DNA of 64,000 nt. Origin: Arthrobacter gandavensis (GTDB taxonomy: Bacteria; Actinomycetota; Actinomycetes; Actinomycetales; Micrococcaceae). Made by a program: the position numbers and the translations under genes. This document shows, one piece after another, positions 61,521 through 64,000 of the stretch. Position 1 is the stretch's first letter. Each line of letters starts with the position of its first letter. The notes below the pieces were generated by a model that worked only from the letters and a program-made list of their open reading frames with translations, was not told where the DNA came from and made no database searches. The stretch covers positions 765,387 through 829,386 of the forward strand of contig NZ_JADKYW010000003.1 in NCBI RefSeq assembly GCF_015355785.1, read 5' to 3'.

Positions 61521-61991
61521 CTACCGGCCGCCCATGAAACGGCCATAACGTTGCAGAACGTTGCGCCACAGGGCTTCTGCTTCCTCGCGCTGACCTGCGC
61601 CGTCTAGGACAGCATCAAACCCGGTGTGTGTGATCGTCACTGCCGTACCCGCCCCTTCAGCGGAGAAGCTAATGGTTACCGTGGCGGAGCCGGTACCCGG
61701 GTTCCAATCCAGCTCAAGCAGTTCGCCCGGCCGGATCTCCCGGACCTCAGCATGCGTAACCGTCTCCTCTTCCTCACTGGTTTCCACCAGGGCACCGCCT
61801 TCGAACTCCACGTGCGTGCCTTCGCCGAACGCCGTGAAATCCGCAGGCCACCACAGGTGCGGGTACTCGTGGAACCCCCGGAAGGCCTCATCGGTTTCAC
61901 GGGGAACCAGGCAGGTCTCCACTACGTCAGCTCTCGGCTCACGGAAGTTGGCCGGCTCAGGTTCCGGGGCATGGGAGAAAAGCGATGTCAT
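61521..61991 (-). CDS. SRPBCC (START-like/AHSA1) domain protein
   Basis: A 156-residue protein with a helix-grip fold: an early conserved DEAFRGFHEYPHLWWP, strands EGGALVETSEEEETVTHAEV and IRPGELLELDWNP, and the C-terminal helix GQREEAEALWRNVLQRYGRF. AHSA1-like proteins bind hydrophobic ligands or act with Hsp90. It lies 9 bp upstream of the FAD-oxidase gene on the same strand, so the two may be co-transcribed. Upstream of it begins the repeat-rich region. Confidence 0.85.
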   Translation of the reverse strand: MTSLFSHAPEPEPANFREPRADVVETCLVPRETDEAFRGFHEYPHLWWPADFTAFGEGTHVEFEGGALVETSEEEETVTHAEVREIRPGELLELDWNPGTGSATVTISFSAEGAGTAVTITHTGFDAVLDGAGQREEAEALWRNVLQRYGRFMGGR

Positions 61992-62141
61992 CTTCCCAGC
62001 CTACGCAGTCTCGCTGGCGGCGCTCCACCGGGTTCGGCTTTGGTTCCCAGCTGGCGTGATGGGTGATGCCCGTGTGACCGCCGCCCGTCGTGGTTCTTCA
62101 GCCGCTGCGGAGGTATTTGTGTGGAAGACTCACCGCCGACG

Positions 62142-63790
62142 GTGGTTCCCAACCGTCGTGGCGGCTGGGCCCATGGGATTCTCCGGTATCCGTGGTTCCC
62201 AGTCGTCGTGGCGGTTGATGCCTAAGGGACTCTGCAGCATCCGTGGTTCCCTGTCTTCCTGGCTGCTGATGCCCATGGGACTCTCCGCCAACCGTGGTTC
62301 CCAGCCGTCGTGGCGGAGGTGGCCCGTGAGGTTTTCCGGCTCCCGCGCTTCCCTACCGTCGTGGCGGATGTTGCCTAGTGTGGTCCAGGGGGTGAACGGA
62401 TGTCACAGAGGGTGGGAGCCCGGCCGGGCGGCTGCCTCTGGGCGGGGTGCGGCGGCCGGGAACGAGTCCTCGTGGCGGGGGCGGCGACAGAGCTTCCCAG
62501 CCGTCGTGTCGGCTGATGCCCAGGGGACTTTGTGCGCACCGTGGTTCCCGGCCGTCGTGACGGTTGTGGTCCGTGAGGCACTCCCCTGCGATGGTTCCCA
62601 ACCGTGGTGACAGGTGTTGCCGCATGTGGCCCCGCTAGCACCAAGTTCCACAAAGGATGGGAAGCGCGGGCGTGCCGGACTAGGGGAGGAAGGAGAAAGG
62701 ATCCGGGACGGTTGCCGGGCCGGGCCGCCGCCCTCGACGGGGCGCGGTGGCTGGAACGAGGCCTCGTGGCGGGGACACCTACCGTGCTTCCCAACCGTCG
62801 TGGCGTCTGATGCCCATGGGACTCTCCGCCAACCGTGGTTCCCAGCCGTCGTGGCGGAGGTGGCCCGTGAGGTTTTCCTGCTCCCGTGCTTCCCTACCGT
62901 CGTGGCGGATGTTGCCTAGTGTGGTCCAGGGGGTGAACGGATGTCACAGAGGGTGGGAGCCCGGGGCGGGAGACGTCCTCCGTGCGGGGGGCGGCGGCCG
63001 GGAACAGGTCCTCGTGGCCGGGCCGGCGACAGTGCTTCCCAGCCGTCGTTGCGGTTGATGCGCATGGGACTCTCCTCCATCCGTGGTTCCCAGCCGTCGT
63101 GGCGGCTGATGCCCATAGGACTACGCACCATCCATGGCTCCCAGCCGTCGTGACGGTTGTGGTCCATGAGGCACTCCTCTGCGAAGGTTCCCACCCGTGG
63201 TAACAGGTGTTGCCGCATGTGGCCCCGCTAGCAGCAAGTTCCACAAAGGATGGGAAGCGCGGGCGTGCCGGGCTTAGGGAGGCAGGAGAAAGGACACCGG
63301 GACGGTTGCCGGTCCGGGCCGCCGCCCTGGGCGGGGCGCGGTGGCTGGAACGAGGCCTCATATCGGGGACACCTACCGTGCTTCCCAGCCTTCGTGGCTT
63401 TGACACCTGTAAGGCACTGCACCATCCGCGCTTCCCATCCGTTGTGATGGAGGTGGCCCGTGAGGCATTCCCCGGGGGATGGTTCCCTGCCGTCGTGACG
63501 GTTGTTGTCTGGTGTGGTCCCGGGGGTGAACAGAAGTCACAAGGGGTGGGTGTAAGGTCCGGGCCGCCGCCCTCGACGGGGCGCGGTGGCTGGAACGAGT
63601 CCTCATATCGGGGAGACCTACCGTGCTTCCCAACCGTCGTGGCGTCTGATGCCCATGGGACTCTCCGCCAACCGTGCTTCCCGGTCGTCGTGGCGGAGGT
63701 GGCCCGTGAGGCACTCCCGTGCGATGGTTCCCGCCCGTCGTGACGGTTGTTCCCTGCTGTGGTCCCGGGGGTGAACGGATGCCTCAGGGG
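62142..63790. repeat. Nested tandem-repeat array (~51-bp units in blocks with alternating linkers)
   Basis: About twenty diverged units begin with G(T/C)G(G/C)TTCCC-A-CCGTCGTGGCG; the best-conserved continuation is TGATGCCCATGGGACTCTCC. Unit starts are near 62142, 62192, 62243, 62294, 62345; 62490, 62541, 62592; 62784, 62835, 62886; 63032, 63083, 63134, 63185; 63378, 63430, 63480; 63623, 63674, 63725. Blocks are separated by ~120-190-bp linkers of two kinds: A with GTGTGGTCCAGGGGGTGAAC (62379, 62920; related near 63512 and 63760) and B with CAGGTGTTGCCGCATGTGGC (62611, 63204). Degenerate units start near 62040. The open frames here carry only repeat peptides and are not called as genes. Confidence 0.85.
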
Positions 63791-63825
63791 GTGGGAGCCC
63801 GGGTCCAGGCCGCCGGCCGTGGACG

Positions 63826-63892
63826 GCAGCCCCGGGCAGAAACCACAGCCGGGCAGAAACCACACCCGGGCAGAAGCCGCAGCCGGGCAGGA
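63826..63892. repeat. 16-bp tandem repeat at the array edge
   Basis: Four successive diverging copies of GCCGGGCAGAAACCACA-like sequence (CCCGGGCAGAAACCACA, GCCGGGCAGAAACCACA, CCCGGGCAGAAGCCGCA, GCCGGGCAGGACCGG). The last ~100 bp of the window show no gene. Confidence 0.8.
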
Positions 63893-64000
63893 CCGGCGCG
63901 GGCAAGGCATCAGCCGCGGGTTCCCGGTCCAGGGCCACAGGCCATGGTCCAGGGTGAGCGCACGGCAGCCAGACAAGACGAGAAGCCAGAGAAGGCAGGC

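Follow-up and report, generated by a model that had tools for sequence, protein, structure and literature searches.

A tandem repeat array that probably lies behind a ribosomal RNA operon of Arthrobacter gandavensis and its relationship to a dispersed palindromic element of the genus

Architecture of the repeat array

The stretch of DNA analysed here (the window) comprises 64,000 nucleotides of Arthrobacter gandavensis, the genome of which (G000) is available as a 3.37 Mb assembly in 9 contigs. The window covers positions 765387-829386 of contig C6, which ends at 829386 bp, the last base of the window. The terminal part of the window contains a gene for an AHSA1-domain protein followed by a repeat array and a short tail, with the following features:

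61521-61991, minus strand: flanking gene, AHSA1 domain (Pfam PF08327, E=3.2e-8)
62040-62170, plus strand: array start, with a diverged unit at 62040 (16 of 19 positions) and a decayed unit at ~62091; 102-bp step to the next match
62142-62417, plus strand: block 1, units at 62142, 62192, 62243, 62294 and 62345; full element A1 at 62349-62417
62490-62663, plus strand: block 2, units at 62490, 62541 and 62591; full element B1 at 62595-62663
62784-62958, plus strand: block 3, units at 62784, 62835 and 62886; full element A2 at 62890-62958
63032-63256, plus strand: block 4, units at 63032, 63083, 63134 and 63184; full element B2 at 63188-63256
63378-63550, plus strand: block 5, units at 63378, 63428 and 63479; full element A3 at 63483-63550
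63623-63796, plus strand: block 6, units at 63623, 63674 and 63724; full element A4 at 63728-63796
63797-64000, no strand: tail, common to the end of contig C5 and the start of contig C9 (sequence match between contigs)

On the plus strand of the array, there are 23 matches to the unit core, with starts from 62040 to 63746 (span 62040-63768), compared with a mean of 0.9 when the same DNA was Markov-shuffled 200 times; the last of these matches (63746) overlaps the preceding one and is probably off-register. At the same threshold, the minus strand of the array contains 4 matches, and 31 matches are scattered over both strands of the other 61.9 kb of the window. The step between units is 50-51 bp inside the blocks and 144-146 or 193-194 bp across the linkers, and TRF detects a 51-bp period in the array. 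An earlier reading of the window that was made from the sequence alone (hereafter, the sequence-only reading) had described a nested, expanded, intergenic array of some twenty units of ~51 bp in blocks of three to five, and this description holds, with six such blocks.

The account of the linkers, in contrast, needs a correction. A model of the palindromic element described below (R1) identifies six full elements of 68-69 bp in the array, starting at 62349, 62595, 62890, 63188, 63483 and 63728; the terminal unit of each block is the right arm of a full element, of which it forms the first half, and a GC-rich spacer follows each full element. A linker is, accordingly, a full palindromic element (68-70 bp) together with its spacer. 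The recurrence distances are as originally given, with type A elements 541 bp apart (62349 and 62890) and type B elements 593 bp apart (62595 and 63188). The general folding of units through CCCATGGG that had also been proposed did not hold up because this sequence is present in 4 of the 23 unit stretches. A CRISPR array, already rejected in the sequence-only reading, is not supported either, as the spacers recur and the units vary. The tail beyond the array holds 3.5 copies of a 17-bp repeat (CCGGGCAGAAACCACAG) at 63832-63890 that is likewise common to the C5 end and the C9 start.

The array very probably lies directly behind an rRNA operon

Array DNA recurs in the G000 assembly at the start and the end of contig C9 and at the end of C5, in each case at a contig terminus, with the unit strand directed outward. 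Contigs C4 and C7 are rRNA operons. C7 and the start of C9 have 78 exact bases in common immediately after the 5S gene, and it is this part of C9 that the outer tails of C5 and C6 match. The last base of the window corresponds to position 107 of C9, ~98 bp from the 3' end of the 5S rRNA gene, and C9 continues into the 5S rRNA terminator; by inspection, an intrinsic terminator-like hairpin precedes the array. Sequences from upstream of 16S rRNA are found at the starts of C5 and C6 and at both ends of C8. The matches to 16S-upstream and 5S-side sequences at the ends of the four large contigs thus represent rrn ends, upstream in four cases and downstream in the other four, with an array at every downstream end; contig C4 has no array. 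Given that the tail of C6 matches a contig that reaches the 5S terminator and that the orthologous loci of two relatives show the 5S gene itself (see below), the C6 array is very probably located directly 3' of an rRNA operon, with the 5S end ~100 bp past the window; the join itself we infer from these matches. The array had been suspected to continue past the window; it stops at ~63830, and what is predicted beyond the end of the window, which is also the end of C6, is the rRNA operon.

Arrays located behind rRNA operons would explain why short-read contigs end in arrays, as they do in this assembly. Telomeres of a linear chromosome, suggested by the outward-pointing arrays at contig ends, were rejected in view of the rRNA overlap between C9 and C7 and the tail matches of C5 and C6. 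With respect to a plasmid origin, one record of 72,556 matched, over 53 bases, and there was no real plasmid match. Contig C4 (L056, 8552 bp) has a 78-base overlap between its ends, which would be expected if two rRNA operons stood in tandem ~8.5 kb apart, and comparable tandem pairs are present in complete genomes of relatives; the two ends of C4 join, and the contig resembles the spacer plus operon of such a pair.

Orthologous rRNA loci in related genomes

In A. koreensis (G025), four array contigs end inside the 5S gene, so that the order 5S, terminator-like hairpin, array, flanking gene can be read directly. The four loci of another relative (G022) show the same order, namely, 5S, terminator-like hairpin, element, flanking gene. 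The rrn flanks of these relatives are orthologous to those of G000 (84-89% over 1.5-7.4 kb), and the AHSA1-domain gene likewise adjoins the rrn element in G022 (C11) and G025 (C12). We denote the locus beside the AHSA1 gene as I and the locus with a solo 5S gene as III. The numbers of right-arm matches at loci I, II, III and IV, obtained with a loose threshold that lets in a few off-register matches, are as follows:

G000: 23, 19, 7, 11 (locus II is cut by the contig end)
G025: 8, 9, 6, 6
G022: 1, 1, 1, 2 (the second match at locus IV is 2 kb away)

An independent pattern, applied to the array strand of G025, gives 8, 7, 5 and 5 matches at loci I-IV. At orthologous rrn loci, G025 and G000 have more units than G022. 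Loci I and II have blocks in common (90% over 993 bp), and therefore the uniform polarity of the four loci within one genome carries no independent weight. At locus III of several species, a solo 5S rRNA gene is located beyond the array or element and, by eye, looks like it has its own promoter (L059 8799-8915, that is, G000 C5:292543-292659; also L077, L107 and L069).

Among the other genomes, G016 contains two elements at locus III and a further one behind a scaffold gap, which apparently takes the place of an rRNA operon, and G005, G024 and G017 carry rrn-proximal copies ~0.3-0.6 kb from the 5S gene. Clear rrn-proximal copies are absent from 32 rrn-downstream stretches of seven other species (G001, G002, G004, G009, G012, G020 and G023), the exceptions being single loose matches in L082 and L103 and single strict-pattern matches in L083 and L105; weak model matches occur in L072 and L073. 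When TRF was run on 44 stretches beside 5S genes from 13 other genomes (the G000 and G025 arrays not included), one 51-bp period was detected, in L100, where a G004 repeat-protein gene is built from an unrelated unit; the array unit is not among the TRF repeats of these stretches, and repeats of other kinds occur in several species. One scan of named genomes produced 16 loci, namely, three A. koreensis contigs and 13 loci with one match each.

A palindromic element dispersed in the genus

Model R1 was built, without structure, from an alignment of 24 elements. The element is of near-constant length, 66-70 bp. Each arm is a copy of one ~27-bp motif, the two copies being inverted relative to each other, and the centre (GGGACCACA) is conserved. 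By eye, the arm motif reads TTCCCA-N6-GTGRC-N3-TGTTSMC; it is inverted in the full element and runs in a single direction in the array. The identity among array units is 0.80 in the arm vs 0.55 in the rest of the unit for 34 distinct units of G000, and 0.86 vs 0.59 for 15 units of G025; the units were chosen by their arms, so that part of this difference is due to selection. The unit consensus sequences of the two species are the same in the arm and different in the rest.

A search for the unit in the rest of the genome and in relatives, as proposed in the sequence-only reading, brought up an element family dispersed across the genus; both this family and the rRNA-operon setting were out of sight in the window because other contigs and genomes are needed to see them. 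R1 reaches E<=1e-3 in 24 of the 29 same-genus genomes and finds no copy at this threshold in the other five (G001, G003, G009, G013 and G021). Under stricter filters, 24 of 197 genomes of the family pass E 0.01, 12 from the same genus and 12 from others; the best E value among the latter is 1.9e-4, and we take these outside-genus matches (E<=0.01) as near chance. Many of the dispersed copies sit in small groups of full elements. Some of these groups, with three to six members, lie between convergent genes away from rrn (L156 2094-2855 in G025, L163 1974-2605 in G027 and L162 1988-2253 in G015), and thus clustering is not confined to the rRNA loci. Neither the element family nor repeat arrays behind bacterial rRNA operons are described in the open literature that we searched, outside which most subscription papers lie; a REP survey (PMC12306157) gives counts for one other Arthrobacter, and no such element appears in the parts of that survey covered here. 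PMC10190698 describes a circular Arthrobacter chromosome of 3,904,590 bp.

Gene context and conservation

The dispersed elements are preferentially found behind genes. Among 49 loci, which are the best matches rather than a random draw and include orthologous loci of different species as separate counts, 21 lie between convergent genes (6.4 expected), 23 between tandem genes (21.4 expected) and 5 between divergent genes (21.2 expected), where the genes come from a home-made codon-usage caller and the expectation from 40 gaps of G000. In 16 of the 23 tandem gaps, the element is closer to the 3' end of the upstream gene. The best-strand orientation relative to the genes is the same in 14 and opposite in 8 of 22 tandem gaps, and a polar site was rejected in view of this mixture.

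Elements are kept in orthologous gaps of different species in ten groups among 48 loci. In 12 of 15 orthologous pairs, similarity is higher in the element than in the remaining aligned part of the gap, and the pooled identity is 756/1027 columns for the element vs 3152/6612 for the rest (gaps counted as differences); the pairs have loci in common, and the orientation of each pair was picked by element identity, which favours the element. In the remaining three pairs, the element is not better conserved, and two of these were probably aligned to another tandem copy.

Possible function and origin

The best reading of these observations is that of a new genus-level, BIME-like, 3'-end DNA element that has been multiplied behind rRNA operons. 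The two-armed organization, near-constant length, location near 3' ends and retention at orthologous places, without clear RNA covariation, point to recognition of the element as DNA. In E. coli, gyrase cleavage sites pile up in BIME-2 palindromes and also in the DNA downstream of rRNA operons, according to the parts of PMC6379681 covered here. In view of this precedent, combined with the apparent action of the element as DNA, our favoured reading is a BIME-like site at which gyrase or another DNA-binding protein would dock. The array would be a tandem expansion of one arm of the dispersed 68-70 bp element at its predicted location 3' of the rRNA operon, likely working as DNA, and a candidate repeated site for the docking of a DNA-binding protein, gyrase or another, that counters the effects of heavy transcription; we hold this proposal tentatively, at somewhat less than an even chance. 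Under the docking-site proposal, one arm would have multiplied in a single direction behind rRNA operons; some protein would recognise the arm motif; tandem copies would multiply binding where positive supercoiling is greatest; the bound gyrase or other protein would relieve or contain the effects of very heavy transcription; and the copies would spread between rrn loci via recombination or gene conversion. The BIME-2 gyrase signals of E. coli rose when transcription was stopped, as reported in the same parts of PMC6379681, and therefore docking and transcription strain need not be coupled. Several results weigh against a docking site, namely, the five same-genus genomes that lack a significant copy, the seven species without clear copies near rrn, the mixed orientation in tandem gaps and the three orthologous pairs in which the element is not better conserved. 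Among the three options of the sequence-only reading, structured RNA, protein-binding array and decayed repeat-protein gene, the protein-binding array survives best.

The Arthrobacter element resembles the REP/BIME sequences of E. coli in that it forms dispersed intergenic palindromes with a 3'-end bias and clusters or arrays of copies. It differs in its length of 66-70 bp, its long arms, the arrays behind rRNA operons and the absence of RAYT (Y1 transposase, PF01797) in 29 of 29 same-genus genomes (controls positive in 5 of 14), which speaks against a RAYT-type REP. REP/BIME sequences are bound by gyrase (BIME-2), IHF or DNA polymerase I. BIME-2 is cut by gyrase (PMC6379681, parts covered), and the Arthrobacter element is a candidate for such binding. 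The four orthologous rRNA loci of three species (1-2, 6-9 and 7-23 unit matches) make up a natural dose series in which the recruitment of gyrase or another protein by palindromic 3'-end elements, and the need of rRNA operons for special DNA behind them, become testable.

The main rival is a neutral, recombination-driven expansion. A neutral or selfish MITE-like palindrome would have been moved in trans by a transposase into tolerated gaps behind genes, and the rrn arrays would be a functionless side effect of gene conversion and unequal recombination among rRNA operons. The element is indeed short and non-coding, with terminal inverted repeats and many copies in one genus, as are MITEs and dispersed palindromic repeats such as ERIC and Correia; the copies are dispersed and limited to the genus, their number differs greatly between near relatives, and the rrn loci have blocks in common. 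However, a search for target-site duplications of at least 5 bases at 48 loci found none beyond one case; matches of 2-3 bases are slightly in excess 5-6 bp outside the elements, which fits an outer GCAC/GTGC palindrome. The multiplication of a single arm at 50-51 bp also sets the element apart from MITEs, and the strong bias in gap type and the retention of the element in orthologous gaps, where it is better conserved than its surroundings, speak against neutrality, and we consider this explanation less likely than the docking site, although it is the strongest competitor.

The boldest rival is a roadblock, that is, a dedicated arm-bound protein that would halt RNA polymerase past rRNA operons and convergent genes, or would halt replication forks. 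TTF-I and Reb1 sites behind eukaryotic rRNA genes act as such roadblocks for polymerases or forks. The location of the elements behind rrn terminators and between convergent genes, the repeated one-way arms behind rrn and the additional 5S gene on the far side of the array at locus III are all compatible with a roadblock; it is made improbable by the mixed orientation in tandem gaps, the intrinsic terminator-like hairpin that is already ahead of the array and the species without the element at rrn. Also improbable, and slightly more so, is a bacterial counterpart of the eukaryotic rDNA terminator or fork-barrier arrays, such as TTF-I Sal boxes and Reb1/Fob1 sites, in which a putative dedicated DNA-binding protein of this Arthrobacter genus would mark gene ends via a 70-bp two-armed site, and copies of this site, multiplied one-way behind rRNA operons, would protect or unwind the most heavily transcribed DNA of the cell. 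Both kinds of arrays consist of a short motif repeated in one direction directly behind rRNA genes, but the Arthrobacter element is also found at many ordinary gene ends.

That the element or unit would be transcribed and folded, to serve, for example, as a terminator in both directions or to stabilise 3' ends, appears highly unlikely, even though the palindromic structure and the 3'-end bias would suit a structured RNA. Along the palindrome diagonal of 46 sequences, five pairs reach z values of 2.4 to 4.6, but covariation is not concentrated there: this diagonal is outside the ten best, so that relatedness explains the pairs equally well. Some of 12 single folds are better than those of shuffled sequences (z from +1.05 to -3.18), yet the consensus fold is weak (-4.4 kcal/mol), no Rfam match to the array was found up to E=1, and terminator-like T-tailed stems number 3 in the array region vs 1.0 (sd 1.1) in shuffles. 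Finally, a decayed or living repeat-protein gene has a negligible probability: the 51-bp period does keep frames open, as had been pointed out from the sequence, with array ORFs of up to 368 aa that are open at the end, but the reading frame is lost between blocks because 541 and 593 are not multiples of 3, the six array ORFs contain no Pfam family (in line with the initial impression of peptides that match nothing known), the codon-usage gene caller calls nothing after 61991, and the same element occupies intergenic gaps elsewhere.

Other repeats near rRNA operons

Repeats of several different families seem to accumulate behind rRNA operons. Palindromic repeats other than the array element (GGTGCGCAG...CTGCGCACC; GTGCAGATATGGCGG...CTGCAC) are located near rrn or 5S genes in L187 1-800 (G017 C4), L184 580-700 (G005 C13) and L186 960-1550 (G024 C6). 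In many species, a repeat-rich stretch lies near one rrn locus (L071, L075, L082, L088, L096, L100 and L104); with units such as GTGAGCGTAAGCCGTTC and TRF periods of 63-288 bp, it looks like a low-complexity repeat-protein gene.
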